From a virus, in IMG/VR virus record IMGVR_UViG_3300032116_000700, positions 1-35,113 of that record: DNA of 35,113 nucleotides, one strand, 5' to 3'. Position numbers and translations under genes: made by a program. Below are positions 1 to 25,300 of the stretch, one piece after another. How positions within the stretch are numbered: the stretch's first letter is position 1; each line of letters opens with the position of its first letter. Under the pieces are notes generated by a model. The model was not told where the DNA came from. It searched no databases and saw only the letters and a list, made by a program, of their open reading frames with translations.

Positions 1-2915
1 AGTACTTTATTGCCTGTCCCTAACTTCTGGACTTTGGCGTGAGGATTCTTTTCAATTACGGAGAACAATTCTCCAACAGTAGTAGCATACTCTTCTTGTT
101 TAACCAACATTGGATGTATATCATCATAATCAGCAGGTTCATACAACGCATCAACAAAAATATTGAATTTTTTGACCGTATCACTCTCTCTAATCATGCT
201 TTTATAAATATCTTCTATATCGTTAATATTATTTGTTATATCTTCATCTCCCGCACTATCTTCGGTGAAATTAAAACTAATCTCGCTTGTTATAAGATAT
301 TTAAATTTCCCATTTTTATCTGATTTTTTACCAGCATAAGCAACATTAGTTTCTATTGCTGCCTGTCTCCAAAGTTCCCGATTATAATCCCTAACGAAAT
401 CATCAAAATATTCTGATATTATCTCGTTCGCCAAAGTAGTCATTTCCGTATCTAACATACTTGGTTTTAAATGACCCAACGAATGAGGACTTACATAAAA
501 TGGATACATTAGAACCATTTTAATGATCGCTGAATCAGCACCACTTTCAACACCTACGGCACCCGTGCTGAATTCATCTGGTAAATCACTATCTATTCTT
601 CTTTGTACCGATTCACTAATCGCTCGTAATGGAATAATAATCTTTTGTTCCAGCGCAGTAGTGATTTGAGCGTCAGTATTGTCTGTTAAATAAGAATTCA
701 TAGCACTAAAATCACTACTTGAATACGAACCGACTTCTCTACTGGCTTTAACGTTAAAATGTTTGAAGAATGCTGCGACCATAGGCCAATATTGTTTCTT
801 GGGTACTATATTACCACCGCCTTTAATCTGGAATACTGTTTTGGTTGGTTCGTTATAACTGATCGTAACGTGAGAAGTTGTGATTGCTCCTTCACCTCTA
901 CTTCTTCTTAACGAATACAGAGTACCTTGTGAATCATTACCACAATGACCCATTCTATCTGATTCAATTTGGCAATAAGACAGACCAATATCGTACCAGA
1001 AATATCCTGCGGGTAAGCCAGGAACATTTAAAATTTGTTCTGGTTTTTCAATCTGCTTGATATACTTTTTAATCTTCCCATCTATAAACTGTTCTAGACT
1101 TGATAGATCGGGAATGTCTGCTTCTACTTCATAAATTTCATTAGTATTTTCATCTCTTTCTTCTTCCATCTGTGGTTCTATTTCGTTCTTGAAAAATTGG
1201 AATCCATCTTTTCTATTAACCAAAATCTCGTCTAACGACCTAAAGAAACCCACACTTGTTGAAGCGGCGTAGTTAAGAATAGATTCAATTACATTATCCA
1301 AAGAGTTTATAATCTTATCTCTTATTTCTGGTAATGGTAGGTTCTTCTTAACCAAGAATTTATCAAAGAAAGATAATGATGCTTTACGAGCATTAAGATA
1401 ATCCATTAAAACAAGTTCACTTATCCTAATCGCTCTTTGTCCGTAGCCTAAACTAGCAGCAAGAGTATTAACGATTTCTTCTACTTTTTCAAAAGGAACA
1501 TTAGGAATATTTTTAAATCTTTCGTCCTCATTAATAGCATCTTTTAAGTCTTGTAAGCCAATAATAAGGAAATTACCAGTTTCTTCGGCTACTACACTAG
1601 GCATATCATAGCCTAACTTCTTTTCCTTAAGCATTGCTCCAATCCAAGTAAGGTAATACTCAAACTCTTGTGGTTTAAGAGTTTCTTGTACTTCTATTGA
1701 AGGAATTTGACGTATCTTATTGACTACCTCTTGTGGGAACCCTAAATCTCCCAACTTAATTTCGGTCAATAAACGTAAAGTCTCTTGGATTACAATTTCG
1801 TTTAGTAGTTTGGAGTGTTTCATTGCTTTGTTCCTTTCGGCTATATTTGTTGATTCGGTCATTTTAGAAAGTACACCTGTTTGGTCTTCAAGATATTTAT
1901 TCATTGAAGCAAAGGATTGAGGATTCTTGGCGTGTTTGCCTATTTCTAAATTTACCTGGGCGTCCAAGAATAAAAGTAATTCAGCAATCATAGGCCAGTA
2001 CTTTTGGAGAGGTGCGCTATTACCCTTACCTTTGATTTGGAGGATATTACCTTGTTCTTCATCAAACGAAACCGTAATGTGTGAATCTGATATTAGTTCG
2101 TTCTCTGTTTTATGCCTAAGCGAATACAAAGTTCCTTCATCATCACTACCGCAATGGCCCATTCTTTTTGCTTCAACCGAACAACGAGACTTACCTATAT
2201 CGTACCAGAAATATCCTTCGGGCATATTCTCAACCGGCAATTTCTGAACTTCTTTCTCTAATTCTTCAAGAGCGATATTGGCCTTTTCTTTTATCTCATC
2301 AAGATAAGAAAAATCCTCTTTTTCAAATATTGAAGTGAAAAAGCGATAATCTTGTGAAATCAAGTAGTTTAAATCGCTAAATATATCTTGTTCTGTAATC
2401 TGCGCCAAGAAAGAACCAATCAGTTCTTCAACAAGTGAAAATATTTCCTGTTTCTTTTCTTCTGGTACTTCTACACGATATTTGGGAAGAAATTTATTAG
2501 CATAGGAAACAACAAGTTTTCTCAACTTTAATAGAGATTTTAAATTTAGCCTCTCTGTTTGTAAAATATTGAAAATTTCATTAACAACGTTGTCAAAGAT
2601 ATCATCGGGGAAGAAATCAATATTCTTTGAAGGCCAATAAATAACAAACTTACGAATCTTTTTGTATGCCTCTTGAATTTGATCACTATCAATATCATAG
2701 TAAGCAAAAATACCAGAGTCAGATTTAAGTATTTGACCGATCCAACCAATATAATTTTCAAGTTGGATTGGCTCTAATTTATTCTTGACCTCTTCGGTAG
2801 GTATTGAACGTATGAACTCAACAATATCTTTTGGAAGACCCAAATTCTCTAACTTTATCTCTGTTAGTATATCAAGTATTTCAGTTATGATTTGTTCTCT
2901 GGTTATTTTATTCAT
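1..2915 (-). CDS. Large protein with tandem internal duplication (MGHCG modules), 3' end outside window
   Basis: An open frame of at least 971 codons starts at ATG 2915 and runs off the left edge. The function is not recognised. The protein is built from two diverged copies of one module: residues about 1-364 and about 365-740. Each begins with a helix ending LTEIKL.(N/D)LG and carries GYFWYDIG, then MGHCG (residues 252 and 655), GTLYSLR, SH(I/V)T(I/V)S, QIKG.GN and KYWPM. The block from MGHCG to QIKG.GN recalls the M.HCV...SLR...Q..G..N pattern of PcfJ-like proteins, which is a resemblance only. Copy 2 has about 37 extra residues before MGHCG. The C-terminal 230 residues are unique. A candidate late-promoter motif lies 15 nt upstream, so a virion or late role is inferred. 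Confidence 0.85.
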   Translation of the reverse strand, partial: MNKITREQIITEILDILTEIKLENLGLPKDIVEFIRSIPTEEVKNKLEPIQLENYIGWIGQILKSDSGIFAYYDIDSDQIQEAYKKIRKFVIYWPSKNIDFFPDDIFDNVVNEIFNILQTERLNLKSLLKLRKLVVSYANKFLPKYRVEVPEEKKQEIFSLVEELIGSFLAQITEQDIFSDLNYLISQDYRFFTSIFEKEDFSYLDEIKEKANIALEELEKEVQKLPVENMPEGYFWYDIGKSRCSVEAKRMGHCGSDDEGTLYSLRHKTENELISDSHITVSFDEEQGNILQIKGKGNSAPLQKYWPMIAELLLFLDAQVNLEIGKHAKNPQSFASMNKYLEDQTGVLSKMTESTNIAERNKAMKHSKLLNEIVIQETLRLLTEIKLGDLGFPQEVVNKIRQIPSIEVQETLKPQEFEYYLTWIGAMLKEKKLGYDMPSVVAEETGNFLIIGLQDLKDAINEDERFKNIPNVPFEKVEEIVNTLAASLGYGQRAIRISELVLMDYLNARKASLSFFDKFLVKKNLPLPEIRDKIINSLDNVIESILNYAASTSVGFFRSLDEILVNRKDGFQFFKNEIEPQMEEERDENTNEIYEVEADIPDLSSLEQFIDGKIKKYIKQIEKPEQILNVPGLPAGYFWYDIGLSYCQIESDRMGHCGNDSQGTLYSLRRSRGEGAITTSHVTISYNEPTKTVFQIKGGGNIVPKKQYWPMVAAFFKHFNVKASREVGSYSSSDFSAMNSYLTDNTDAQITTALEQKIIIPLRAISESVQRRIDSDLPDEFSTGAVGVESGADSAIIKMVLMYPFYVSPHSLGHLKPSMLDTEMTTLANEIISEYFDDFVRDYNRELWRQAAIETNVAYAGKKSDKNGKFKYLITSEISFNFTEDSAGDEDITNNINDIEDIYKSMIRESDTVKKFNIFVDALYEPADYDDIHPMLVKQEEYATTVGELFSVIEKNPHAKVQKLGTGNKV
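690..1823 (-). repeat. Protein-level repeat unit 2 of the MGHCG protein
   Basis: This is the second copy of the module. It begins at an in-frame Met (1823) preceded by AAAGGAAC, so a separately translated shorter form is conceivable. It has an acidic insertion (EMEEERDEN-type region near 1130-1180) absent from unit 1. The left boundary is approximate. Confidence 0.75.
1824..2915 (-). repeat. Protein-level repeat unit 1 of the MGHCG protein
   Basis: This is the first copy of the duplicated module (residues 1-364). It aligns along its whole length with 690-1823 at protein level: LTEIKLENLG against LTEIKLGDLG, YFWYDIG in both, RMGHCG in both, GTLYSLR in both, and QIKGKGN against QIKGGGN. The reading frame is continuous across the junction, so this is an internal duplication and not two genes. 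Confidence 0.8.
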
Positions 2916-2952: not shown

Positions 2953-3291
2953 TCAACGCCGATAGTCGTCGGAAAGCCTAACAATATCGTCCAGTTCTGG
3001 GGTGCTTACCTCAATAAGTTCTACTGCTTCTCCTTTGGCGCAGAAGCGATGAATTCGTCGTGGTTCAACGTGGTAAGTTTGGCCTTCAATAAGATAAATG
3101 TTTCTAACGTGTGGCTCATCGTCAAGTTGTAAATGAAGAGTGCCTGACTTTACCATAATGGTTTCTTCTTTGACCTTGTGATATTGTCGTGACAACCTAC
3201 AATGTGGATTGATGTGGAGTATCTTTCCAACGTATTTATCTGTTTTAGCCCAGATAATTTCATAACCCCAAGGCTTTTCTACTCTTTCCAT
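2953..3291 (-). CDS. Small cupin protein, mannose-6-phosphate isomerase/ManC C-domain type
   Basis: This 112-aa single-domain cupin contains EKPWGYE near the start, then HCRLSRQYHK...E (first metal-binding cupin block), G.YHVEPRRIHRF (second block) and an ending ELDDIVRLSDDY. This is the order seen in the C-terminal cupin of type II phosphomannose isomerase/GDP-mannose pyrophosphorylase. The family binds a metal and isomerises or binds sugar phosphates. The exact substrate is not deducible. It is the last gene of the groEL operon, 1 nt after the preceding stop, with SD AAAGGA. A nucleotidyltransferase-like protein at 16865-17773 could supply the missing partner domain (inference). Confidence 0.75.
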   Translation of the reverse strand: MERVEKPWGYEIIWAKTDKYVGKILHINPHCRLSRQYHKVKEETIMVKSGTLHLQLDDEPHVRNIYLIEGQTYHVEPRRIHRFCAKGEAVELIEVSTPELDDIVRLSDDYRR

Positions 3292-3827: not shown

Positions 3828-4104
3828 TTGTTTCCTCTTGGGTGGGGTTCTTGAATTCCAAATAACCCTCTATCATTCCGGCTATGTCGTCTAGGGTAAT
3901 ATCAATAGAACAAAGCCTTTCGCGGAGTTCGCGAATAGAAGCGAGCGCGGCCTCATAGTCCTCGGTGTCTCGTAATAATTTGTTTATTCCTGGGCCGGAC
4001 TGATCGCCCAACGCTCTCAACTTTCCGCAAGCCTTCCAAACGAATTGTGCTACTTCTTCCGAGAAGTTCTCTTCGTCTATTGTAAGTTGGACTTTGAGCC
4101 TCAC
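3805..4104 (-). CDS. Hypothetical 99-aa protein coupled to groEL
   Basis: The GTG start at 4104 is chosen because it overlaps the groEL stop as GTGA and has SD GGAGG 5 nt before it. An upstream extension into the groEL frame has no such signal. The protein has an N-terminal strand (RLKVQLTIDEE) and a helix-rich remainder ending in a polar tail (PTQEETNGSQNED). No family was recognised. Coupling to groEL suggests expression in fixed ratio with it, but there is no evidence that it is a co-chaperone. Confidence 0.75.
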   Translation of the reverse strand: MRLKVQLTIDEENFSEEVAQFVWKACGKLRALGDQSGPGINKLLRDTEDYEAALASIRELRERLCSIDITLDDIAGMIEGYLEFKNPTQEETNGSQNED

Positions 4105-5672
4105 GGAACCTCCACGACTGCGTGACCGCTGGTGATAAGAGTTCCAGCCGCAGAAGCCGCGTTTTGAAGAGCGCATCGTGTAACCTTTGCCGGATCAACG
4201 ACACCAGCAACAACGAGGTCTTCAATAGAGTTAGAAACAAAGTTCCATCCTTCATTACCTTCTGCTTCAAGAACGCGATTAACGATAATGTCCGGTGATA
4301 AACCAGAGTTGATCGCCATTTGTCGGATCGGAGCAGAGCAAGCCTTTATTACACTATTATAACCCAATAGTCTATCGCCTTCAAGTTCTGGTGGTGGAAG
4401 AGTGGAAATAACGCGAATCAAAGCGGTTCCACCGCCAGGAACGATGCCTTCCATTCTTGCTGCCTTTACAGCCTCAACCGCATCTTCGATCCTGTGCTTC
4501 TTCTCGATCATTTCGATCTCGGTTGCTGCTCCAACCTTGATAACAGCAACACCAGAAGCAAGGCGGGTAATGCGCTCTTGAATTCTTTCTCCTTCGTGAA
4601 TGTTGTCGGTTTGATCCAACTCGGCCTTCAAAGCCTCAATTCGGTTCTCAACTTCACTCCAATCGCCCTTACCACCAATAATGGTTGTGCCGTTCTTTAA
4701 AACCTCAACCTTCTTTGCTTGTCCGAGATCGATCAACTGGAACGTGGATAAACTGACGTTGGAAGCCTTTGAGAAGAACTTTGCGCCAGTAGCAATAGAA
4801 AGGTCAAGCATAATGTCGCGACGCTCCTGACCGTAGCGAGGAGCCTTTACAGCGGCTACCTTCATAGTTCCGCGCATAGCATTCATAATAAGAGCCGCCA
4901 ACGCTTGTCCTTCTATCTCGGAGGCAACGAGAATAAGTGGACGACCTTCACGGGCAACAGGTTCCAGAACAGGCAATAGGTCTTGGACCTTATCCAACTT
5001 ATCATCAACAACAAGAATAAAACAGTCCTCATAAACAACAGCGTTTCTACGCTCGTCATTCACGAAAGCACCAGCAGCATAACCGGAATCAAACCTGAAC
5101 CCCTCAATAAGATCCAAAGTTGTTTCGGTAGAACGTGCTTCCTCAACGATAAGCGAACCGTCCTTTCCAGCAGAGGTAATAGCCTTTGCTACAAGACGGC
5201 CAATAACGTCATCATTATTAGCAGAGATAGTTGCGATGTGTGTAATGTCTGTCTCGGATCGAATCGGATTAGAAACCTCTCTCAATTGGGTTATAATCCG
5301 TTCAACAGCGAAGTCAATTCCTCGCTTTACCTCAACAGGAGAAGCACCAGCGGTAATGTGCCGGAATGCTTCGGTAAGAATGGCGCGAGAAAGAACCGTT
5401 GCCGTTGTGGTTCCATCACCGGCCTCCGAGTTGGTCTTTCTACTTGCTTGCTTGATAATTTGGACGGCAGCATCCTCAAATGGATCTTGAAGAGAAATGA
5501 ATTCAGCGACCGAAACGCCGTCCTTGGTAATGATAGGAGCGCCGTCCTTGGCCTTTAGAATAACGTTTCGCCCTCTTGGACCAAGAGTAGAAGAAACGTA
5601 ATCGGCCAAAAGATCGACGCCCGAAAGAATCTTTTGTTGTAGAGAAAAGTTTGAATTATAGTGTTTAGTCAT
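4101..5672 (-). CDS. groEL: Group I chaperonin GroEL (phage-encoded)
   Basis: This 523-aa protein would form the ATP-driven chaperonin ring that folds proteins in the host cytoplasm, here probably phage proteins. The features read as functional: STLGPRGRNV, TKDGVSVA (Asp51, equivalent to GroEL Asp52), DGTTTATVL (86-94), the Asp in the DAVEAVKAARMEG helix (equivalent to Asp398), VPGGGTAL, and GVVDPAKVTRCALQNAAS near the end. It is about 25 residues shorter than E. coli GroEL and lacks the GGM tail, which usually lines the cavity. It has its own promoter (5693-5721) and a hairpin over its SD. No GroES gene is adjacent; a GroES-like gene lies at 22207-22503. Confidence 0.97.
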   Translation of the reverse strand: MTKHYNSNFSLQQKILSGVDLLADYVSSTLGPRGRNVILKAKDGAPIITKDGVSVAEFISLQDPFEDAAVQIIKQASRKTNSEAGDGTTTATVLSRAILTEAFRHITAGASPVEVKRGIDFAVERIITQLREVSNPIRSETDITHIATISANNDDVIGRLVAKAITSAGKDGSLIVEEARSTETTLDLIEGFRFDSGYAAGAFVNDERRNAVVYEDCFILVVDDKLDKVQDLLPVLEPVAREGRPLILVASEIEGQALAALIMNAMRGTMKVAAVKAPRYGQERRDIMLDLSIATGAKFFSKASNVSLSTFQLIDLGQAKKVEVLKNGTTIIGGKGDWSEVENRIEALKAELDQTDNIHEGERIQERITRLASGVAVIKVGAATEIEMIEKKHRIEDAVEAVKAARMEGIVPGGGTALIRVISTLPPPELEGDRLLGYNSVIKACSAPIRQMAINSGLSPDIIVNRVLEAEGNEGWNFVSNSIEDLVVAGVVDPAKVTRCALQNAASAAGTLITSGHAVVEVP

Positions 5673-5674
5673 TT

Positions 5675-5708
5675 ACCACCTGTTATTTTTCTATTATAAC
5701 CAGGTGGT
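5675..5708 (-). promoter_or_regulatory. Inverted repeat hiding the groEL ribosome site, promoter -10 in loop
   Basis: The coding strand reads ACCACCTG (5708-5701), an 18-nt loop containing TATAAT, then CAGGTGGT (5682-5675), which includes the groEL SD just before ATG 5672. Read-through RNA can form the 8-bp stem. RNA from the local promoter starts inside the loop and cannot. Confidence 0.6.
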
Positions 5709-5721
5709 AGTCAAACGTCAA
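5693..5721 (-). promoter_or_regulatory. Sigma70-type promoter of the groEL operon
   Basis: TTGACG (5721-5716), a 17-bp spacer and TATAAT (5698-5693). The -35 box includes the TGA stop codon of the upstream 492-aa gene (5720-5718). Confidence 0.8.
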
Positions 5722-7196
5722 GTGCTTTTTGTGTCTTTTCTGCCTTTTTCCATTTTAGTAACGGCTTCATCTGTATTGATTGCTAGCGTCCGAGAAGATT
5801 GAATAGCCTTTTCCCCATAAGCCTTACGGGTTTGTCCTTCCTCGGAAGTTGGGGATGTTAAATAACTTTCTAGATTTGTACTAAATTGATCGAAAGCGCG
5901 ATAGACAGGTGCTACTGTTTTTTCCAAAAGTTCTGCGTAATTGGTCCAAAGTTGCTTTAAGTTTTGCTCGCTTAAATCAAGAATACCAATCTCTTCATAA
6001 TTTGCGATTCTAGTCATCTCTTGCTGGGAAATATGGAATTTTCTTTGTAGCATAGCACCAGGCATTCTTTTTAGAATGCTAATTATTTCTTCATCAGTAT
6101 TAGCCCTACTCAAATCCAGAATAATCTGTTTTATTTTTGACATTTCTTGTTTATCTAATTTCTCTTTCTTTTCTTTTGACGAAAAAATATCACTCAATTT
6201 TTCGCCAGATTTAGAACCAGGCCGCGAACCATAAATAACCAGAGGAAGTTCAAAACCTTTTTCTTCTAAATTATCTAAAAGAGTTAGATCAAATTTAGAG
6301 ATTGGAATTCCCTTTTCACTATCAAATATAAGTTGATTATTTTTATCTGCGACAGCATAGATAGAAACAAATGGAAGTTCATCGTCATCGGTCTTGCCTT
6401 TGATAAAATCTTTTAATTTATCTACATCGTACCATTCTAATTTCATATCAACTTCATCGCTTGGAACAGCACGCGCTTTAAAAAAGACATCAAGAAAGTT
6501 CTGTGGAGTCATTGTGAATTGACCGAATACGATTGAACTTCCTTTATCCTTTTTAAGAGCGACAAGATAATGAACTGGTTTTCCAGTTTCAAATAACTCA
6601 ATTAAATTATTAAAAGAACCAGAAATCTTCGTTCCTTCTCTTTCCCACCTTTCAGTACTTTCAGTAGAGCCTTTTTTAATAAGCTTCAAAGAATAGTACT
6701 CTCCTGAATCGTCAATAACATCTTGTATCTTTGTTCCTGGTATTTGTCTAGACTTACCACCGAACAAAGCAGCAACAAAAGCCTCAAACAAAAATCCAGC
6801 AGCAGATCGGTCAAATTCTTGGACTATGCTATTCAAACTTTCTACAAATACCATAGCAGAAAGGATCTGCGGTATTGTGTTTGGTCCTTGTGAACCACCA
6901 GAGATAATTGAATTAACAGATTCTAATTTTTCTTTGAAAGAAACACCTTGAATATTTCTCATAAATTTGGTAATTCTTTCGCGATCCGCTTTCTCTGGTT
7001 GTCCCCAAAATTCGGTAATCTTAAATGGGGGCAGTCTAAACTTGCCTTTCGCATCTTCCGTGCTTTCAGAACTTGCTTCCGTCAAAAGTTCAGCAGTCAA
7101 TTGCCCGAACAAACTTTCAAGCAAAGATTCAAGTTCTTGCTTTTTGTCTGTCTTTTGACCCAAGCGATTATCAACTGCCTTATCCCAATTAAACAT
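5718..7196 (-). CDS. Hypothetical 492-aa protein with a possible PD-(D/E)XK-like segment
   Basis: I do not recognise this protein overall. Residues 134-171 read GFLFEAFVAALFGG...IQDVID...YYSLKL: a conserved-looking Glu138, Asp159/Asp162 and a buried strand ending Lys171. This order is compatible with a restriction-endonuclease-like (PD-(D/E)XK) core, but the usual acidic residue two before the Lys is Ser169. The rest is charged, with a lysine-rich linker near 340-360 and a helical C-terminus. Start ATG 7196 follows SD GTGAGGG. A variant of the ACTATTTAT motif lies 16 nt upstream, so late or virion expression is inferred. A virion-packaged DNA-binding or structural role is possible. Confidence 0.8.
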   Translation of the reverse strand: MFNWDKAVDNRLGQKTDKKQELESLLESLFGQLTAELLTEASSESTEDAKGKFRLPPFKITEFWGQPEKADRERITKFMRNIQGVSFKEKLESVNSIISGGSQGPNTIPQILSAMVFVESLNSIVQEFDRSAAGFLFEAFVAALFGGKSRQIPGTKIQDVIDDSGEYYSLKLIKKGSTESTERWEREGTKISGSFNNLIELFETGKPVHYLVALKKDKGSSIVFGQFTMTPQNFLDVFFKARAVPSDEVDMKLEWYDVDKLKDFIKGKTDDDELPFVSIYAVADKNNQLIFDSEKGIPISKFDLTLLDNLEEKGFELPLVIYGSRPGSKSGEKLSDIFSSKEKKEKLDKQEMSKIKQIILDLSRANTDEEIISILKRMPGAMLQRKFHISQQEMTRIANYEEIGILDLSEQNLKQLWTNYAELLEKTVAPVYRAFDQFSTNLESYLTSPTSEEGQTRKAYGEKAIQSSRTLAINTDEAVTKMEKGRKDTKST

Positions 7197-7212
7197 TTAG
7201 AACCCTCACTTT

Positions 7213-7222
7213 ATAAGTAGTT
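7213..7222 (-). promoter_or_regulatory. Variant late-type motif ACTACTTATA
   Basis: The coding strand reads ACTACTTATA directly after the clpP-like stop codon (7225-7223) and 16 nt before ATG 7196. It departs from the ACTATTTAT consensus at one position. Confidence 0.35.
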
Positions 7223-7987
7223 TCACATCAACTCATCAGCGATTCCGTACTTAATCGCTTCTTCTGCTGATAAATAGATGTTTTGACCGGTTTTAACCAT
7301 TCGTCGCAATTGCTTAACGGTTAGGTTTGAGTTCTCGGCAATAGCGTTGATATACATTTGCTGGATATTCTCTGCTTCGCCAAGTTCGTTAGCAACGTGG
7401 AATAGACCGCCTGAATGGCCGGTAATAACGTTGTGGATCATTACGCGAGCGTGGCGAGCGATCTTGCGCTTGCCCTTGGTTCCTGCGGCGAGGAGGAGAA
7501 CGCCAGCGGACATTACCTTTCCAAGACCGATGGTTTGAATTGGAACGGTCCTCTTTACCAGTTCTATAACGTCATAGATCGCGAACATATCATCGGCATT
7601 ACCACCTTGGGTGGAAATGTAAAGTTTGATAGGATCTGGTTCCTTCTGAACCTCTTCCTCTTCTTCCTCTGGTTCTTCGGTGGTTGCCTCGGGTGTTTCT
7701 GCGCCCTCAACGGCTTCTACTGAAACCTCTGGCTCTTCCTCTTCTTCCAGTTCTTCCAGTTCTTGTGATTCTGCTGATGACTTCTCAATCAGTTCCTTAT
7801 AAGTAATAAGGCTGGAAACAAGACCATTCGCAGCCTCTTCGTTCACCTCGCCCATAAAGAAAATGTTTCCAAGTTCCTTTAGGGTTTCCTTCAAGAAAGC
7901 AGTTTCAAGTTGAGCGATCTGTGCTTCGCCCTTCTCTTCGTCTGTTCCTTCTGGTGATTCTTCATCCATTCTTCGCTTCGGCTTCAT
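7223..7987 (-). CDS. ClpP-fold serine protease with acidic insertion (possible prohead protease)
   Basis: The start is placed at ATG 7987 with SD GGAGGAAGT, giving 254 aa. The ClpP fold is clear: NIFFMGEVNEEAANGLVSSL, then KLYISTQGGN, VMSAGVLLLAAG with Ser160 as nucleophile, RVMIHNV with His185, and YLSAEEAIKYGIADEL. Residues about 68-117 are a Glu-rich insertion between the first helix and the IYLYI-type strand, absent from housekeeping ClpP. The ClpP catalytic Asp (ERD.FLS) aligns with Asn236 in GQNIYLS, so the triad is altered. ClpP-like enzymes act as prohead proteases in several phages, which fits the neighbouring acidic virion-type protein, but there is no direct proof. It overlaps the upstream gene by 26 nt. 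Confidence 0.88.
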   Translation of the reverse strand: MKPKRRMDEESPEGTDEEKGEAQIAQLETAFLKETLKELGNIFFMGEVNEEAANGLVSSLITYKELIEKSSAESQELEELEEEEEPEVSVEAVEGAETPEATTEEPEEEEEEVQKEPDPIKLYISTQGGNADDMFAIYDVIELVKRTVPIQTIGLGKVMSAGVLLLAAGTKGKRKIARHARVMIHNVITGHSGGLFHVANELGEAENIQQMYINAIAENSNLTVKQLRRMVKTGQNIYLSAEEAIKYGIADELM

Positions 7988-8354
7988 ACTTCCTCCAAAT
8001 TTCTTCAGTATGCGCGAGTAGTTTGTTAAAGTCATAGTGTGGTTTTCTCCCACTCTCAATATAATAGTGCGAGAGCGTTTCGGCAAGCGTTTTCTTCCAT
8101 AAATCGAAATTTTGCTTATCAAGATCGATGTAAAGTTTGATTGACTCTTCATTATAGCCAAGAATCTTCATTTGCTTTACCTTTGCCGTTTGGATGAACG
8201 CTGCCGACTCAACGCAAACAAGCAAAATTTTAAGAATGGCTGCTTCGTTCCTCTTGAACCAGTTTGAAGCATCACCAACATTCAATAAATAACTAAGGGA
8301 ATGATAGATTAAATAACCAATCAACATTCCAAAGACAACAGATAGCGTATGCAT
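7962..8354 (-). CDS. Hypothetical 130-aa protein with N-terminal membrane segment
   Basis: The start is ATG 8354, since the promoter at 8388-8415 and a terminator-like hairpin exclude the longer upstream frame. It reads MHTLSVVFGMLIGYLIYH, one predicted membrane segment, then a short loop, a second weakly hydrophobic helix (ILKILLVCVESAAF) and a charged helical C-terminus. The family is unknown. It is the first gene of a two-gene unit with the ClpP-like protease, and the overlap suggests translational coupling. Confidence 0.75.
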   Translation of the reverse strand: MHTLSVVFGMLIGYLIYHSLSYLLNVGDASNWFKRNEAAILKILLVCVESAAFIQTAKVKQMKILGYNEESIKLYIDLDKQNFDLWKKTLAETLSHYYIESGRKPHYDFNKLLAHTEEIWRKYEAEAKNG

Positions 8355-8369
8355 CTTGACCCCATAAAT

Positions 8370-8404
8370 AAAAACCGCTGTGTGTTTATTATAACACACA
8401 GCGG
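8370..8404 (-). terminator. Intrinsic terminator after the acidic 222-aa gene
   Basis: CCGCTGTGTGTT, a 6-nt loop, AACACACAGCGG, then TTTTTATTT on the coding strand. It stops transcripts of the 8428-9096 gene, yet its loop carries the -10 box of the next promoter. Confidence 0.75.
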
Positions 8405-8415
8405 CCAAGAGTCAA
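8388..8415 (-). promoter_or_regulatory. Sigma70-type promoter of the membrane protein/ClpP-like unit
   Basis: TTGACT (8415-8410), a 16-bp spacer and TATAAT (8393-8388), embedded in the terminator hairpin. Confidence 0.75.
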
Positions 8416-8427
8416 GAGGAAATTAAA

Positions 8428-9096
8428 TCACTTACCTTTGAGAATGCGCTTCATAATGCGGTCAGTAACTTCATTAATGGCTTCTGCGCGGGAGCGACGG
8501 GCAGGAGCAGCGCGGGGAGCAGGCTTGCGAGCAGGAGCAGCGCGGGGAGCAGGCTTGCGGCTTTCAGATAGACGAGCCATAACGCGGCGGGCAACTTCGG
8601 AAACGATTTCTTCTTCTGGTTCCATCCCTTCTTCTTCTTCTGGTTCCATTCCTTCTTCTTCTTCTTCTTCGGGGGGCATTTCTTCCATATCCATTTCTGG
8701 TTCTTCGGCAGGAGCCATTTCTTCTCCACTATCGTCAATAGAAATTGGCTCGTAGCCTTTAACACCACTTAGAGCGTCATTGAGTTTTTGGGCTAAGTCT
8801 TGTAGGGCAGTTTTAACGACAGAAGATACATCAACGTCGCTGCCACCCATATCCATCTCTTCATCGCCCATATCATCCATTTCGGCTTCATCGCCCATAC
8901 CCATAGGCTCTTCGGGAATTTCTTCTCCACCTTCTTCGGGCATATCATCTTCTTCATAAAGACTTTCTTCCATATGGTACCCTTCTCTGCGTGTATCTCC
9001 CATCTCTGATAGGAAATTTTCAGTAAGAGGGCCGAGGTTGGCGTACTTCATAAAGCGGCGGATCTCGCCTTCACTCAATAGTTGTTTCTTGCTCAT
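8428..9096 (-). CDS. Acidic low-complexity protein with basic Ala/Pro/Arg tail, probable virion or scaffold-type protein
   Basis: The 222-aa protein starts MSKKQLLSEGEIRRFMKYANL, an N-terminal amphipathic segment typical of phage head-associated proteins. The middle is dominated by Glu, Asp and Met (EEMDMG, PEEEEEEGMEPEEEEG). The last 60 residues are strongly basic, with KPAPRAAPAR twice and a final coiled segment (NEVTDRIMKRILKGK). The acidic-core and basic-end layout resembles scaffold or core proteins, and the ClpP-like protease downstream would be a suitable partner (inference). SD GGAGG precedes ATG 9096, two ACTATTTA(T/C) motifs lie upstream and a strong terminator follows. Confidence 0.85.
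   Translation of the reverse strand: MSKKQLLSEGEIRRFMKYANLGPLTENFLSEMGDTRREGYHMEESLYEEDDMPEEGGEEIPEEPMGMGDEAEMDDMGDEEMDMGGSDVDVSSVVKTALQDLAQKLNDALSGVKGYEPISIDDSGEEMAPAEEPEMDMEEMPPEEEEEEGMEPEEEEGMEPEEEIVSEVARRVMARLSESRKPAPRAAPARKPAPRAAPARRSRAEAINEVTDRIMKRILKGK
8501..8559 (-). repeat. 30-bp direct repeat encoding KPAPRAAPAR
   Basis: Two near-identical 29-bp copies at 8501-8529 and 8531-8559 with a period of 30 bp keep the reading frame. They duplicate a ten-residue basic Ala/Pro/Arg segment. Confidence 0.85.
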
Positions 9097-9190
9097 AGAA
9101 TTAATTCCTCCGATTCTTTAAGTAAATAGTGCTTTCCATAGGAAAGGTACTTTCACACATAAATAAATAGTCGTTTATTTCTCAAAAAAC
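9097..9190 (-). promoter_or_regulatory. Intergenic region with two ACTATTTA motifs and two small hairpins
   Basis: In transcription order: a 7-bp AT hairpin (9180-9174 with 9167-9161) overlapping ACTATTTATT (9171-9162), a CTTTCC-TAT-GGAAAG hairpin (9146-9132), a second motif ACTATTTACT (9130-9121), then SD GGAGG and ATG 9096. It probably terminates the IMPDH operon and starts late transcription of the acidic-protein gene. Confidence 0.5.
9121..9130 (-). promoter_or_regulatory. ACTATTTACT motif closest to the acidic-protein gene
   Basis: Coding-strand motif 24 nt before ATG 9096, just after the CTTTCC-TAT-GGAAAG hairpin. A second full ACTATTTATT lies at 9162-9171. Confidence 0.45.
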
Positions 9191-9508
9191 TCAACTTTCT
9201 TCTATCATATCAAAAATGGAGATAAGTTCATCATCAGACAAATTCAAGTCTCTCATTTGCTTTTCGCTCAACTGTCGTTTTACTCTGGATGCTCTTTCCC
9301 AGGTTTTTGGCATTTTGAGTTTCTTGGTCTTTATCTTGTCTATAAAGGCAAGAATGTTCTTATCTCCGTCTATGTAGCCCTGAATAATGTAGCGAAAGAA
9401 TAAAGCTTGTGAAAGGTGATCGCGGTCTAATGCGATCTTTAGATCGGCACAACGTTTATCTGATTCGTAGAAAACTATCTTCTTACTTGTTGTGCCGTTG
9501 TTGCTCAT
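9191..9508 (-). CDS. Hypothetical 105-aa protein downstream of IMPDH
   Basis: The function is unknown. The centre (ADLKIALDRDHLSQALFFRY then IIQGYIDGD) has the strand-helix-helix order of a ribbon-helix-helix-like domain. It is followed by a basic stretch (KIKTKKLKMPKTWERASRVKRQ) and an acidic C-terminal helix. It starts inside the guaB stop codon (ATGA, 9508-9505) and is the last gene of the operon from the 11581-11609 promoter. Confidence 0.75.
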   Translation of the reverse strand: MSNNGTTSKKIVFYESDKRCADLKIALDRDHLSQALFFRYIIQGYIDGDKNILAFIDKIKTKKLKMPKTWERASRVKRQLSEKQMRDLNLSDDELISIFDMIEES

Positions 9509-10560
9509 GCTAGGTTCCTAACGTGCGTGCTGCTCTCAACTTGACCGGCATGAGTTTGGATAATGAACTTTGACTTGGTTTGTAATTGAACGATGTTTCT
9601 TGCTCCGCTGTAAGAGAAGCCTGAACGAATGCCTACTTTGATTTCGTCAAACACACCGGAAACTGGACCCTTGTGGCGAACCTGTGAGGAAATGCCTTCA
9701 ATAGAAGAAACACGACCTCTCCACGCTGTTTGTGCTTCACGGGAAGCCATTCCACGATAAGCCTTGTAATAACTACCATTACTGAAATAAATTTCCCCTG
9801 GTGTCTCGTCGGTTCCAGCAAGCATAGAACCAAGCATTACAGCGTCAGCACCAGCGGCAAGGGCCTTTACAATGTCGCCAGAGGTTCTGATGCCTCCGTC
9901 AGCAATAATAGCAGCAGGAGTAGCCGATTCTTGATAATTCACTACGTCAAAGATGCTTTGTAGAGTTGGAACGCCGTGTCCTGTCTGAATGCGAGTAGAG
10001 CAGATAGAACCGCCGCCGACTCCGACTCGGACTGAATCAGCACCCCAGTTAGATAGATCGGTAAATGCTTCGGTTGTTGCGATGTTTCCGGCCATAATGT
10101 GAATCTTACTTCCGTAAGAATCGCGAAGGTTCTCTATCATTCTACGAACGGCGATGTGATGCCCATGTGCTACGTCAATGCATAGAACATTTACACCAGT
10201 AAAACAAAGCATTTTTGCTCTTGCAAGTTCCTCTGGTGTTGTTCCAACAGCAGCACCAATAACAACGCTTGGAGCATTAGTAGCGAGCATTACCTTATCT
10301 CTTGCCTTCTCAAACATAGCAAGTTGATCCTGTGGGTTGTTATAGCGATGAAGAATAGGAAGACCACCGTTCATTACAACGGCAGCAGCCATTTCTTCAT
10401 TTACAACCGTGTCCATAGGTGAGGAAACAATAGGTGCTTCTAGAACAATGTCCTTGAGTTTTGTTCCAATATCTACTTCTGCTCTTGACTCAATGTCGCT
10501 GAATTGGGGCACAAGCAAAACATCATCAAACGTCATCGTCTGTCGTAGGTTCTTGAACAT
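9505..10560 (-). CDS. guaB: IMP dehydrogenase/GMP reductase family enzyme without CBS domains
   Basis: This 351-aa (beta/alpha)8-barrel enzyme starts [20 protein letters not shown] and has SSPMDTVV, the catalytic-loop [11 protein letters not shown] with Cys187, [35 protein letters not shown] and RHKGPVSGV. The C-terminus [10 protein letters not shown] follows the IMPDH pattern (AG..ESHPH) more than GMP reductase, so oxidation of IMP to XMP for GTP synthesis is favoured. The CBS regulatory module normally inserted after about residue 90 is missing, which would remove allosteric nucleotide control. Its start lies 35 nt inside the preceding gene. Confidence 0.93.
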
Positions 10561-10837
10561 TACTCTTTCCTTCTAGGTGTTGTTTGAATTCAGAAATAAG
10601 TTGCTGGGCTTTGTTCCAACATTCGGGGCAATAAAGACGAACGTTGCCCTTATCTTGGACCACAAACCAAGTTTCAGCCATTTCTTTACTCTTCTTATCA
10701 AACGGGGCTTCGCAAGTCAAACAAAAATCCGGGAGTTTGCTAAACATCATTATTTGCTCTCCCATCTTTTGTTGTGCTGGGTCGTTGCCTTGTTTGGCTG
10801 CTTCCCTGGATAATGCTCTTCGTTGTTCTCTATTCAT
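10526..10837 (-). CDS. Small zinc-finger-like protein, 103 aa
   Basis: It begins MNREQRRALSREAAKQ, then carries CLTC (about residues 39-42) and CPEC (about 70-73), a four-Cys zinc-ribbon arrangement, with a polar C-terminus. No named family was recognised. It overlaps dut by ATGA at 10837-10834 and guaB by 35 nt, placing it in the nucleotide-metabolism operon. Confidence 0.75.
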   Translation of the reverse strand: MNREQRRALSREAAKQGNDPAQQKMGEQIMMFSKLPDFCLTCEAPFDKKSKEMAETWFVVQDKGNVRLYCPECWNKAQQLISEFKQHLEGKSNVQEPTTDDDV

Positions 10838-11292
10838 CGTCCCGTGCTTCCCAGCGCACCATCGCCGCGATTAGAAATGGTAATAGGATACCAACTATTA
10901 ATGTTGTCGTCGCCAGCAGCCACGAAACGAACAGGAACAACTGGAATAACTACGCCCTGGGCGATCTTATCGCCAGCCTGAATAAACTGGGTGTCGGGGC
11001 CGATGTTGTGAAGGTTCACAAACACCTCGCCGTCATAACCGGAATCAACAACACAAGCGCCAACAATAAGCTTTCGCTTTGCGGCAACACCAGAGCGGTT
11101 CATAATTTGCATCATGTAGCCGTGTGGAATACCAAATTTTAGACCAGTTCCCAGAACTACGGACTGCCCTGGCTCAACGCGGACAGTAGAGCCGTCAGAA
11201 GGGTTGAATGGAATGTCTAGCCCTGCGTCAGACGGATTCGCTCGCGTTGGAAAATGGCTCGCGTGTGGTAGAGCGTAATATTCCAGGATCAA
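10834..11292 (-). CDS. dut: dUTPase (trimeric dUTP pyrophosphatase)
   Basis: The enzyme hydrolyses dUTP to dUMP and PPi, limiting uracil in DNA and feeding ThyX (20455-21174). All five dUTPase motifs are present in order: SDAGLDI, NRSGVA, VVDSGYDGEV (catalytic Asp), GDKIAQGVV and RGDGALGSTG near the C-terminus. The 152-aa length is standard. It overlaps the preceding gene by 4 nt and the following gene by ATGA. Confidence 0.97.
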   Translation of the reverse strand: MILEYYALPHASHFPTRANPSDAGLDIPFNPSDGSTVRVEPGQSVVLGTGLKFGIPHGYMMQIMNRSGVAAKRKLIVGACVVDSGYDGEVFVNLHNIGPDTQFIQAGDKIAQGVVIPVVPVRFVAAGDDNINSWYPITISNRGDGALGSTGR

Positions 11293-11558
11293 CGGGCACC
11301 CCGAAGAGTCTGGTAAGCCTCGGCCAAGTCTTCCAGGCTTTCATTCTTCTTCAACATTCGGTAAGCACGGGTAATGGTAGAAATGTCTTCCTTGGAAAGA
11401 AAGCCATTCTTCACAAAGTCAGAACGCAGTTCGCGCTTTGACTCCTTGAAAGGCTCCATAGCATCCTCAATAGCCTTCAAGTTGCGAATGTACTCAACAA
11501 GTTTCTCGCCCTTGCTCGCAAGGTCGGTACCAACATCATCTTCAATTTCGTCAAACAT
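11289..11558 (-). CDS. Small helical 89-aa protein, GapR/DUF2312-like in layout
   Basis: The start is ATG 11558 with SD AAGGGAGA; the promoter -10 box at 11581-11586 rules out the longer upstream frame. It is an all-helical charged protein: LVEYIRNLKAIEDAMEP...KRELRSDFVKNGFLSKEDISTITRAYRMLKK. The order of a coiled helix with IE, then GF..K.I..I.R..RMLKK, resembles GapR-type DNA-binding proteins, but this is a weak inference. It is the first gene of the dut-guaB operon. Confidence 0.75.
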   Translation of the reverse strand: MFDEIEDDVGTDLASKGEKLVEYIRNLKAIEDAMEPFKESKRELRSDFVKNGFLSKEDISTITRAYRMLKKNESLEDLAEAYQTLRGAR

Positions 11559-11580
11559 ATTATCTCCCTTTTGTTTTATT

Positions 11581-11609
11581 ATTATAGCGTGGAATGGGTC
11601 GGCGGTCAA
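11581..11609 (-). promoter_or_regulatory. Sigma70-type promoter of the dut-guaB operon
   Basis: TTGACC (11609-11604), a 17-bp spacer and TATAAT (11586-11581), a near-perfect match. The -35 box contains the uvsE stop codon TGA (11608-11606). Confidence 0.88.
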
Positions 11610-12568
11610 GCCGAAAGTGTCTGAATTTTGTGAGCGCGAAGAACGGACGCAACAGCAAGTTCTTTCATCTTTGCCTCGATCATGCAGTCAAACTCTACAC
11701 CGTGGTTGTTAGGCAAAGAAAGAACGTAATCGGAATGTGCTTGTGGCTTGATCTTTGGGTTCTTTTGCTCAATAGAACGGCTCTCGGAATAATGAACGAC
11801 TGGCTTTACATCTCCCCAGGTAGAAGCGGCAAGAAGCAAAGCATCACTTTCGCTTTGTCCTCCGTCGCATAGCGAGTGGTGATGATAGTCAAAGACAATA
11901 GGAATGCCGATCTTCTTGTGGATCAAGTTGTAAAGATCAGCAGTAGAATAAAGGCTGGTCTTATCGTCATTCTCAACGGTCAAACGGGTCTTGACCGAAT
12001 CGGACAAACGATCAAAGTTGCGACAAAATGAATCGCTTGCCTTGTTCTTGTCTCCGTAGGTTGCTCCAACGTGAATGTTGATCTTACCCCAAGGACTTTG
12101 AGGAAGGTTGAGTTTGTCGTGGATCCAACCGTGAATTTCCAGATCGCGAACTGTCTGCTGAATAACACGCTCGTCAGAAGAAGCAAGTTTGTTGAACGGT
12201 CCAGGGTGAGCCGTTAGACGCAGGTTATTAGCAGCAGCAAACTCGCCGCAACGCCGGAGAACAGAAACAATTTGATCGTGATCGGGCAGTTGCTCAAAGC
12301 GGTAGTCGGAAGCCCAAGGCATAATGTCCGAGGACATTCGGTAGAACTTGTAGCCGTTCTGGTTGTTCCAAACAAGGATCTTGAATAGATCCTTTACGTT
12401 TTGGAGAGCAAGTTGGGAAGCATAAGCGACACCGCGCTTCTCAAAAGTAGAGCGGATCATAGACCGGTTTGTAGTGATAGGCTCGGTCTTCTTTGGCTTT
12501 CCACCGTACTCGGTTGGATAAGAAAGTTGCATGTTGATGCACGCATAACCGTAATTGATGATAGACAC
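11606..12568 (-). CDS. uvsE: UV damage endonuclease (UvsE/UVDE)
   Basis: This TIM-barrel endonuclease nicks DNA 5' to UV photoproducts. The 320 aa contain the family's hallmarks: NYGYACIN at the start, YRMSSDIMPWAS, LTAHPGPFNKLAS, INIHVGATYGDK, LTVENDD and IVFDYHHH, which carry the expected His/Glu/Asp metal ligands. It starts with GTG at 12568, SD AGAGG five nt before, hidden in a predicted hairpin. It is transcribed alone from its own promoter, and the next promoter overlaps its stop codon. Confidence 0.95.
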   Translation of the reverse strand: MSIINYGYACINMQLSYPTEYGGKPKKTEPITTNRSMIRSTFEKRGVAYASQLALQNVKDLFKILVWNNQNGYKFYRMSSDIMPWASDYRFEQLPDHDQIVSVLRRCGEFAAANNLRLTAHPGPFNKLASSDERVIQQTVRDLEIHGWIHDKLNLPQSPWGKINIHVGATYGDKNKASDSFCRNFDRLSDSVKTRLTVENDDKTSLYSTADLYNLIHKKIGIPIVFDYHHHSLCDGGQSESDALLLAASTWGDVKPVVHYSESRSIEQKNPKIKPQAHSDYVLSLPNNHGVEFDCMIEAKMKELAVASVLRAHKIQTLSA

Positions 12569-12569
12569 T

Positions 12570-12615
12570 CTGACCTCTTGTTTTTACTCCACTATAATAG
12601 CAGAGCAGAGGCCAG
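12570..12615 (-). promoter_or_regulatory. Inverted repeat hiding the uvsE ribosome site
   Basis: CTGGCCTCT (12615-12607) can pair with AGAGGTCAG (12578-12570), 9 bp with one G-U, around a loop that holds the -10 box TATTAT. The 3' arm is the uvsE SD. Confidence 0.5.
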
Positions 12616-12622
12616 CGGTCAA
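12594..12622 (-). promoter_or_regulatory. Sigma70-type promoter of uvsE
   Basis: TTGACC (12622-12617), a 17-bp spacer and TATTAT (12599-12594). Confidence 0.8.
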
Positions 12623-12634
12623 GTCAAGAGAACG

Positions 12635-13048
12635 TCAATCGGCTTTGTTCTTCTTTTGCCACTTAAACGAACTTTCATCCGTCTTTATTGGACCACCGGC
12701 AGCCCAGGTAGAGCAAGTCCTGCGAGAATGGCACTTGAATTGATGCATCCAACAATAACCAAATTCTCCTGGACCTTCTATCTGCTCGTCATTTACGGGC
12801 ATACACTTCTTCATTCTTGGTGAAATGTCAAAAGCAACGCAGTTTCCACAAAGGCTTTTCTTTGCTTCTTCTACTGTTGCGTCCCACTTCTTGGCTATTT
12901 TATTCCAATAGTCCATAGAAGGTTCATTTGGGTTTAGGGGGCCGTAGTGGTAGTCCTCTACGGCGTGATCCCTATTATCGGTGTTTAGTTTTAGGTCTTG
13001 TGTTGCCTTGGGGCAAGGGGAAGAACCGGCAAATGTTATTTTTATCAT
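12635..13048 (-). CDS. Cysteine-rich conserved phage-type protein, 137 aa
   Basis: It carries a cysteine cluster in the second half: CGNC, then C (KKCMP), then YCWMHQFKCHSRRTCSTW and GGPI, six to seven Cys with His. This is likely a zinc or iron-sulfur binding module. The N-terminal part (MDYWNKIAKKWDATVEEAKKSLCGNC) is helical. The family is not named with confidence. An ACTATTTATT motif lies 11 nt upstream, within a hairpin that covers SD TGAGG; late expression is inferred. Confidence 0.82.
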   Translation of the reverse strand: MIKITFAGSSPCPKATQDLKLNTDNRDHAVEDYHYGPLNPNEPSMDYWNKIAKKWDATVEEAKKSLCGNCVAFDISPRMKKCMPVNDEQIEGPGEFGYCWMHQFKCHSRRTCSTWAAGGPIKTDESSFKWQKKNKAD

Positions 13049-13083
13049 TTTGACCTCACAATAAATAGTCTTATGAGGCCAAA
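13049..13083 (-). promoter_or_regulatory. Inverted repeat hiding the SD of the Cys-rich gene, motif in loop
   Basis: TTTGGCCTCA (13083-13074, last codons of dnaE) pairs with TGAGGTCAAA (13058-13049), 10 bp with one G-U. The loop contains the dnaE stop and ACTATTTATT. Confidence 0.55.
13060..13069 (-). promoter_or_regulatory. ACTATTTATT motif upstream of the Cys-rich gene
   Basis: The coding-strand motif ends 11 nt before ATG 13048. If it is a -10 element, the leader would be very short and the SD might be clipped. This is the weakest fit among the eight copies. Confidence 0.4.
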
Positions 13084-16000: not shown

Positions 16001-16520
16001 GCATGTCAAAGTCAATGCGAGGATAACGATAGTAGTTCTCTTCGCGGTAAGAATCGGAAACAATCTTGAATAGGTTATTCAAACCAGTTTGGTTCTGTGC
16101 GATAAGAACAAGGTGGCGACGACGAGAAAGAATGCTGTTAGAAGCCTTCTTCGTTTCAGCCTCATTCTCAATAGTGGTTCCAGAAGTTTCGTCCTCTGCG
16201 ACCTTGGACGCTTCCTTCTTGTTTAGCATAGTGCGGTCGTATTCTTGACGCCACTCCGCAATAGAAGGAACAAAGTAAGCCTCGCATCCGAAAATGGGCT
16301 TAAAGTCCTTACCCTCGGCCTTCATCTTGCGAGCGTGTAGAACTTGCCAAGAAAATCCGTTCATGTTTCCGTGATCTGTTAGAGCAAGTGCTTCGCTTCC
16401 GTTTTGATAAGCAAAGTCCATATGATCTTGGGGGAACCCAAGTCCGTCAAAGATAGAACCTGCTACGCTGTGAGCGTGAAGCCCGACGAACGGAATAGAA
16501 CTGGTTGTGCGATCACTCAT
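13071..16520 (-). CDS. dnaE: DNA polymerase III alpha subunit (DnaE) with intact PHP domain
   Basis: This 1149-aa family C replicative polymerase is the same size as bacterial DnaE. The N-terminal PHP domain keeps a full-looking set of metal ligands: H15-x-H17, D49-H50, E80, H136, C187 and D261-x-H263. It may therefore be an active proofreading nuclease, unlike E. coli DnaE (inference). Polymerase core: GPGRGSAAGS (431-440), catalytic Asp473 and Asp475 in YPDIDFD, and Asp638 in FIKFDILGL. A helix-hairpin-helix (SIKGLGETAIEEI) and an OB-fold region (LQLTWCIPRKITAKR) follow. It is the last gene of the glutaredoxin operon, overlapping the upstream gene by 8 nt. No clamp or loader was seen in the window. 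Confidence 0.97.
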   Translation of the reverse strand: MSDRTTSSIPFVGLHAHSVAGSIFDGLGFPQDHMDFAYQNGSEALALTDHGNMNGFSWQVLHARKMKAEGKDFKPIFGCEAYFVPSIAEWRQEYDRTMLNKKEASKVAEDETSGTTIENEAETKKASNSILSRRRHLVLIAQNQTGLNNLFKIVSDSYREENYYRYPRIDFDMLRKHSEGIIASSACLGGVYAGCYWENRDKGTEAILDAMRELTRNMVSIFGDRWYGELQWNNIPEQHSLNQFIIQVCKEFGVKLISTADSHYPNNNAWKDRELYKRLGWLGSGRPEWANESELPASVDEIGYELYPKNGDQMWASYKKYSALCGASYDDDLVMNSITETHKIAFERIEAFEPDTTVRLPSFVVPAGETADSALEKFSMEGLRKKGLHTNNEYVERLRYELGVIADRGFSKYFLTMNQIAAISNEHMLTGPGRGSAAGSLVAYALEITQVDPIKYDLLFSRFLRADATDYPDIDFDVADPMVIKDTLIQKWGDNTVVPISNWNTLQLKSLIKDISKLYNIPFPEVNKVTSKMMSEATPLAKQRHGIKAGVYTPTFEEVKEFSPSLQAFLRNYPDVANHIDALHGQVRSCSRHAGGVVVAENLDNYMPLISSKNVRQTPWSEGQNVRHLEPLGFIKFDILGLSTLRMIEGAIRHILKRHHGVQEPTYNDIRAYYDKFLHPDVLDMNDKKVYKKVFHKGKWAGVFQFTENGVQKLCKQAKPNNIIDLSAITSIYRPGPLSAGVDKDYIEAKEAPLLVEYYNQEYKNVTEETYGFLIFQEQIALLAHKLGKNISLDEGNSLRKVLTKKGTGKTDKVLQSLYDRFIEGCVEKGMTAKAANDLWEKFKFFSGYGFNKSHAVCYSIISYQCAWLFTHYECEWLAAFLDKEPETKKEKAISIAKSFGYGIEPLNINTSGTYWEISEDGTSLIQPLTSIKGLGETAIEEIYKGRPFRKVEDFLFNDKMRYSKLNKKTIDVLVRSGTLNVLIDSRFTGKKHFWTAVAVDRPRKPKNLEENISLYAPEGDFTTEEEIQFLTELTGEFPLSKVVSPETLEKLEEKMIPPISEFDGNLQLTWCIPRKITAKRTATGKEYFQVEVVDSNSAIVTVRCWGVDVAMGDRLEVNKPYLVKPDYNDEWGFSTRGRIGKFWKCLAS

Positions 16521-25244: not shown

Positions 25245-25245
25245 G

Positions 25246-25295
25246 TTTGCGGGCTCCAACCCTTACATTATAAATAGTTTATTGGAGCCCGCAAA
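25246..25295 (-). promoter_or_regulatory. 14-bp perfect inverted repeat before the homing endonuclease, motif in loop
   Basis: TTTGCGGGCTCCAA (25295-25282), a 22-nt loop containing ACTATTTATAATG, then TTGGAGCCCGCAAA (25259-25246), followed at once by CATG. The GGAG ribosome site lies in the 3' arm. No U tract follows, so it is not a terminator. Read-through RNA from the nrdJ operon should be silent for the endonuclease. Confidence 0.75.
25269..25278 (-). promoter_or_regulatory. ACTATTTATA motif in the hairpin loop
   Basis: Coding strand ACTATTTATAAT, matching the late-type motif and also containing a -10-like TATAAT. A transcript starting just downstream would lack the left arm of the hairpin. 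Confidence 0.5.
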
Positions 25296-25300
25296 GATAC

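Follow-up and report, generated by a model that had tools for sequence, protein, structure and literature searches.

A duplicated MGHCG module of an uncultured phage marks a large family allied to PcfJ, with a possible GNAT-like fold

The virus record IMGVR_UViG_3300032116_000700 (G000; 35,113 bases, analyzed whole and here called the window) begins with a minus-strand gene whose protein carries two copies of a module of ~370 residues, which we name after its MGHCG motif. Each copy consists of a helical N-terminal part of ~220 residues and a core of ~120 residues that holds the motifs. Alignment-based searches place the module in a large family in uncultured phages, some of them large, and profile comparisons indicate that it stands beside PcfJ in one superfamily, outside the Pfam family PF14284; very probably, it is a large-phage branch of that PcfJ-like superfamily. 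As for its function, the explanation that we put first overall, and hold tentatively, is that phages use the module against the host as a GNAT-like modifying domain.

RESULTS

The window protein is an internal tandem duplication

The open reading frame (ORF) runs on the minus strand from position 2915 down to position 3, encoding 971 residues with no stop codon up to the window end. The same gene is complete in L003, a 16 kb contig from another metagenome (1143 residues, 92% identity to the window protein), and by this comparison 172 C-terminal residues of the window protein fall beyond the contig end. When residues 1 to 366 were aligned with residues 367 to 971, the copies were 34% identical over 391 columns with 57 gap positions (E = 3e-59), and their Smith-Waterman score was 506, against a mean of 43 and a maximum of 64 in 300 shuffles. 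The tandem duplication that an initial annotation had read from the letters, at positions 1 to 2915, is therefore real and correctly placed. All of the motifs that it listed as shared were found in both copies, with the exception of KYWPM, for which the common string is YWPM (QKYWPM in copy 1, KQYWPM in copy 2). An assembly artifact was ruled out as the source of the repeat, since L003 carries the same gene, complete and with the same repeat. Searches of Pfam, PHROGs, NCBIfam, and PADLOC gave no match above their cut-offs for the window protein. A DUF3604 match (PF12228, E = 5e-4, residues 655 to 718) was rejected, as it lies under the curated cut-off, is absent from the L003 homologue, and concerns the second copy only; at the C terminus of the L003 protein there was a weak match to phrog_6077 (E = 0.0016).

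The module belongs to a large family with invariant polar residues

A first scan with the window protein returned L003 alone, and small alignments added a few relatives. A nine-row alignment then matched at least 599 stretches of the viral collection, of which at least 235 encode a relative; the best 80 of these were kept and yielded 78 loci on 74 contigs, 17 of them 200 kb or longer. Module counts were taken from 84 loci (L039 to L117 plus five earlier ones, some sharing one contig): one module was found in 87 ORFs, two in 2 ORFs (L003 and L041), and three in 2 ORFs, which are the same gene in L031 and L039. Typical members have 500 to 700 residues, and neighboring genes that each carry modules occur in L031, L053, L061, L068, L092, and L111. 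Among 18 records, namely those already known to hold the family plus the window, we counted 1 to 4 module matches per record, the 4 including two pieces of one frame. The family was found in just one of 50,697 phage records, that of the isolate Salicola phage SCTP-2, whose gp31 (ASV44046.1, a hypothetical protein of 735 residues) carries the module, unlike the window protein in a single copy and with EMKG in place of QIKG.

In module 1 numbering, nine residues are invariant in all 84 distinct modules: His254, Cys255, Ser265, Arg267, Thr281, Lys295, Gly296, Asn299, and Pro302. Cys245 is present in 83 of the 84. His279 had seemed conserved among the earliest sequences compared but is missing from 31 of the 84, which rules out a metal site through His279. 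The residue after His-Cys is Gly in 83 modules and Ala in one, and most members have an extension reading GGGY..NF. Since the searches used the patterns E[AS]x[AR]MGHCG and [EQ][MI]KGx[GNA]Nx[KVA]P, conservation inside these is in part a product of the search; outside both patterns lie Ser265, Arg267, Thr281, and Cys245. According to predicted secondary structure, QIKGKGN of module 1 forms the loop that joins the last core strand to the following helix.

Profile comparisons link the module to PcfJ

The starting clue was a chance-level match (E = 2) to a phage "PcfJ-like protein," and from it a group of phage PcfJ proteins was reached; Pfam PF14284 confirmed the first of these (E = 5e-9). When 11 modules were compared with 11 phage PcfJ rows in hhalign, the probability was 97.1%, with at most 1.6% in 60 column shuffles and 0.1% for the reversed profile. 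The 84 module cores gave 94.4% (E = 8.8e-8, over 74 columns spanning every motif) against nine bacterial and plasmid PcfJ rows, 98.1% against phage PcfJ, and 98.2% against a third PcfJ set; in 50 column shuffles per comparison the maximum was 1.4% for the bacterial and plasmid rows and 0.5% for the phage rows. A motif search across eight genome loci and five plasmid proteins left those nine rows; L037, L135, L136, and L140 yielded no PcfJ row. PcfJ and the module share the order of the core motifs, H-C, [SL]-x-R, T-[IV]-E or T-F-I, and [QE]-x-[KR]-G-x-x-N, and phage PcfJ also shares the predicted order of strands and helices. The resemblance to PcfJ-like proteins at which the initial annotation had hinted is thus borne out by the profile comparisons with both the bacterial and plasmid rows and the phage rows. 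In a Foldseek search of the module model against viral models, 12 of the top 18 matches had PcfJ-like names (E from 1.1e-4); the first match (E = 3e-6) has 735 residues and, from this same length, is probably SCTP-2 gp31.

Several observations count against membership in PcfJ itself or against the kinship. With E allowed up to 10, the PF14284 model matched nothing in the window record, and it gave no match for the protein either; it likewise misses G005, a record that holds a phage MGHS form. The HC[VI] motif of PcfJ is not present, as the modules have HCG[N] where PcfJ has HCVG, and both Cys245 and the GGGY..NF extension are additional to PcfJ. Phage PcfJ rows contain a long insert, and some of the alignments between modules and PcfJ span only the KGxxN half. 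Because the profile similarity is strong and the Pfam model has no match, we place the module beside PF14284 and not inside it. One phage PcfJ subfamily (three loci, L020 to L022) reads WVELNRPGDFAAESDAMGHS, with Ser in place of Cys (MGHS versus MGHC) and a WVEL strand near that of the MGHCG family; from its sequence it lies midway between the MGHCG family and PcfJ and is a possible evolutionary bridge.

Both copies are under purifying selection and the duplication is old

The ratio of replacement to silent substitution rates (dN/dS), determined by the NG86 method for the window against L003, was 0.13 for copy 1 and 0.29 for copy 2 (0.05 and 0.30 for the cores), and replacement changes were below the neutral expectation in both cores (binomial P = 1.9e-5 and 0.0036). 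Both copies are under purifying selection, and with only 34% identity between them the duplication is old, as had been proposed. In the C-terminal part there were 35 replacement and 6 silent changes, a ratio of 1.5 that is not significant (P = 0.25).

A single-module counterpart of the gene was found in L117, the sole match in a collection of 84,980 species genomes, in which an earlier scan with fewer alignment rows had given zero matches. It lies on a contig of 8.5 kb that was assigned to the bin of an Opitutia metagenome-assembled genome; we infer that the contig is phage DNA. Its gene is syntenic with the window gene, and the gene order is that of the window (identities of 54% for GroEL, 34% for a small ORF, and 57% for the cupin-like gene); a serine-protease-like gene downstream matches one in L003 (31%). 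A tree of the 84 distinct module cores unites the modules of the window, L003, and L117 in one set (100/100), within which module 1 pairs with L117 at 86/81 only. The window repeat probably arose inside the window's own family branch. Because the L031 repeat, the L041 repeat, and the majority of adjacent gene pairs fall outside this set, the tree indicates that the module was duplicated more than once. The initial annotation would have abandoned the duplication had the second half proved to be a separate, unrelated gene in relatives, but this was not found: a single module is the rule among relatives, and in several phages there are paralogous genes in tandem or ORFs with two to three modules.

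Predicted structures of the module and of PcfJ point to a possible GNAT fold

Two AlphaFold models, one of the module and one of phage PcfJ, were built from alignments without shared rows. In both, the order of the core is strand, helix, His-Cys loop, three strands, KGxxN loop, and helix, and the strands match pairwise (YFWYDIG with YKWVEL, LYSLR with IYSLR, HITVSF with HVTVEV, and ILQIK with IVQIK, module first); the PcfJ model has additional elements behind the first strand and ahead of the last. In a VIA-align search with the module model, 42 of 50 rows were acetyltransferases by title (best Z of 7.4, 3.4 Å over 103 residues); two rows each of PanZ and RibT we take to be GNATs as well, three rows are clearly other proteins, and the title of 3eo4 is uninformative. 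With the PcfJ model, 47 of 50 rows were acetyltransferases by title (best Z of 8.3, 6.4 Å over 134 residues), the other three being 4f6a and two RibT rows (RibT Z of 7.6, 2.8 Å over 99). The GNAT rows are redundant, with many KAT6A or MOF entries, so the counts overstate their independence; the families aligned with the predicted core include HAT1, MYST, ESCO1, RibT, and GNA1. Since two independent models indicate the same fold, with many different GNAT families, a GNAT fold is plausible, and we consider it somewhat probable from the models that the core comes closest to the N-terminal half of the GNAT acyltransferase fold.

A number of results weigh against this assignment. The module model is weak overall (mean predicted local distance difference test score [pLDDT] of 56, predicted template modeling score of 0.42, core blocks 57 to 89, His-Cys block 60); the PcfJ model has a pLDDT of 69, with core blocks up to 94. 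Z values of 7 to 8 are typical for models without a clear relative, and Foldseek against the PDB gave zero matches under E = 0.1 for either model. There is no detectable sequence similarity to GNATs: hhalign against a GNAT profile gave at most 2.1%, a weak test as the profile had only 5 rows, and Pfam gave no GNAT match in the window protein. The strict GNAT motif A, [QR]xxGx[GA], is present in 7 of the 84 modules and is thus mostly altered; the count of 68 obtained if Glu is allowed first is partly selected for, as positions 293 and 298 are in a search pattern. In the module model the following helix begins about six residues past motif A, which is later than in GNATs. Bacterial PcfJ rows mostly stop soon after the last core helix and so lack the C-terminal half of a GNAT. 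Among solved structures, the module profile found no relative by sequence at E up to 10; with the phage PcfJ profile, two SecB sequences (E = 0.026 to 0.027) and one other (E = 1.5) were taken as chance.

Some relatives lie in polyvalent proteins or conflict-type clusters

The neighbors of the window gene are the cupin-like gene, small ORFs, GroEL, a 492-residue ORF, and a ClpP-like protease (Table 1). Among relatives, L040 has a 2984-residue ORF that combines a 2'-5' RNA ligase/2H domain, three ART-PolyVal stretches, a GNAT, and one module, and L031 has four modules in two adjacent genes, which are flanked by InPase/nucleotidyltransferase and SprT-like/YunG proteins and, at the opposite end, by an ART-PolyVal protein. 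Such mixtures of domains are described by Iyer et al. 2017 (PMC5512222) as proteins injected with the DNA, with GNATs among them; the word PcfJ occurs 0 times in that paper. Several activities in one polypeptide were found in L040, unlike the window protein, which consists only of the repeated module and a C terminus without assigned family.

The L031 genes form a conflict-type cluster (L031:1046-15977) that runs from InPase with nucleotidyltransferase through SprT-like with YunG and the two module genes to the ART-PolyVal protein. The former module gene has a GIY-YIG-like stretch (by eye) and one MGHCG module and the latter has three modules; the final protein has additional ART-like stretches beside ART-PolyVal. 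Of the 84 loci, some of which come from the same contig, 9 have a T4 gp15-like gene and 7 have a tail sheath gene within four genes of the module gene. In 8 of the 84 loci, a protein of ~410 residues without family, represented by L098:3267-4496 on the minus strand and its relatives, is encoded near the MGHCG gene; an HxxxH-like stretch, recognized by eye, may be a metallopeptidase site.

In 4 of the 7 plasmid regions inspected, PcfJ itself directly follows a gene for the Cas9 inhibitor AcrIIA9. In L034, L038, L141, and L142, PcfJ is directly downstream of AcrIIA9/PcfK genes, two of which touch it end to start, and in L036 it stands between the CRISPR genes Csx16 and Csm6. AcrIIA9 carries a PcfK domain (PMC6739104).

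Table 1. Coordinates of the duplicated-module gene, its parts, and the upstream gene in the window
Feature	Positions	Strand	Remarks
Duplicated-module protein gene	3..2915	minus	971 residues; 3' end cut by contig edge; complete homologue L003:3587-7018
Module 1, residues 1-366	1818..2915	minus	Helical N-terminal part and core
Core of module 1, residues 232-346	1878..2222	minus	
His254-Cys255 of module 1	2151..2156	minus	84/84 modules
Ser265-Leu266-Arg267 (SLR) of module 1	2115..2123	minus	Ser and Arg in 84/84 modules
QIKGKGN of module 1, residues 293-299	2019..2039	minus	Lys295, Gly296, and Asn299 in 84/84 modules
Module 2, residues 367-750	666..1817	minus	From repeat alignment
Core of module 2, residues 634-749	669..1016	minus	
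His657-Cys658 of module 2	942..947	minus	
QIKGGGN of module 2, residues 696-702	810..830	minus	
Nonrepeated C-terminal region, residues 751-971 (plus 172 residues in L003)	3..665	minus	Faster evolving
Upstream cupin-like gene	2953..3291	minus	Cupin-like by eye; 57% identity to L117 gene; gene order common to L003 and L117

Elsewhere in the window, the minus strand from 4101 to 16520 carries a large-phage gene set (GroEL, ClpP-like protease, IMP dehydrogenase, UvdE endonuclease, and DnaE-type DNA polymerase III alpha). The 492-residue ORF (5718-7196, minus strand) has no convincing family match; a stretch in its first half resembles, by eye, a PD-(D/E)XK nuclease core. At 23419-26542 on the minus strand, a ribonucleotide reductase gene is broken in two by a split intein: the part at 25301-26542 ends in an intein N part (PF14890), the part at 23419-24465 starts with an intein C part whose last residues are VHN, followed by Cys, and the halves are separated by a free-standing endonuclease-like ORF (24420-25259). 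This looks like the "fractured gene" arrangement of marine metagenomes.

DISCUSSION

The initial annotation suspected an active or metal site in His-Cys; both residues are present in all 84 modules, yet one phage PcfJ subfamily has MGHS, and His279 is not conserved. A site in which Cys and His hold zinc or another metal, shaping a small nucleic-acid- or protein-binding domain without catalysis, would suit the near invariance of Cys245 together with the invariant His254-Cys255 pair. The phage PcfJ rows, however, have no counterpart of Cys245, three of them have Ser for Cys255, an invariant fourth ligand is absent, and Cys is no more invariant than Arg, Lys, Asn, and Thr, so that we regard a metal site as quite unlikely. 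Invariant polar residues (His, Cys, Arg, Lys, Asn, and Thr) are also unusual for scaffolding, which speaks against a noncatalytic virion or assembly protein whose repeat adds avidity and whose invariant residues are structural, as does the polyvalent architecture of L040. Tail sheath and T4 gp15-like neighbors in some relatives and the presence of up to three modules in one ORF are what such a protein might have, and we judge it unlikely.

Catalysis of another kind could rest on Cys255 as the nucleophile of a thiol enzyme (a peptidase, a transglutaminase-like enzyme, or one that forms a thioester): Cys255 is invariant, and only Ser replaces it, in the PcfJ subfamily, which would keep a nucleophile. 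Adjacent His and Cys are not the usual geometry of a dyad, and a papain-like fold was not matched in the structure lists; of all these alternatives we give this one the least credence. The strand, helices, and three-strand meander would fit a RelE-like toxin as well, and an RNase of the BECR (barnase-EndoU-colicin-RelE) type, with invariant His254, Arg267, and Lys295 as catalytic residues, would let the phage cut host RNA; PBECR is a named domain of polyvalent proteins (PMC5512222). Arg and Lys are more variable in the bacterial PcfJ rows, and we think such an RNase very unlikely. The VIA-align lists contain one metallo-beta-lactamase row and neither BECR nor papain-like families, which excludes nothing.

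For the GNAT-like domain that we favor, the module would be a GNAT-type transferase or derived from one. Placed where the last core strand gives way to the following helix, the KGxxN loop may bind a CoA-like (coenzyme A-like) or nucleotide donor, and the loop that holds His-Cys would line the acceptor site; acyl transfer itself seems doubtful. The protein would act on the host early in infection, and the two copies may be kept as two active sites or two specificities. Judging from its relatives, it is a tentative candidate for one of the effectors with which large phages act on the host, and it may travel in the virion as polyvalent proteins do; against this reading, no effector domain or tail gene was found adjoining the window gene. 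A wider proposal, on which we place little confidence, is that PcfJ and the MGHCG family are an unrecognised GNAT branch of early-delivered acyltransferases (or enzymes using another CoA-like donor) with which conjugative plasmids and large phages modify host proteins, the His-Cys acceptor site being peculiar to the branch.

One PcfJ query matched 540 plasmid records. In the openly licensed literature, judged by titles and the beginnings of abstracts, which is no proof of absence, nothing was found on PcfJ function or on "PcfJ-like" together with "phage." The MGHCG family is a real and large variant of this known orphan family, and there is now a testable first hypothesis for both. The link to PcfJ provides an alignment that reveals invariant residues, together with a predicted fold and with small proteins of one module each that suit biochemistry. 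If the GNAT-like prediction is true, an orphan family carried by hundreds of plasmid records and many phages would become a testable class of host-modifying enzymes.

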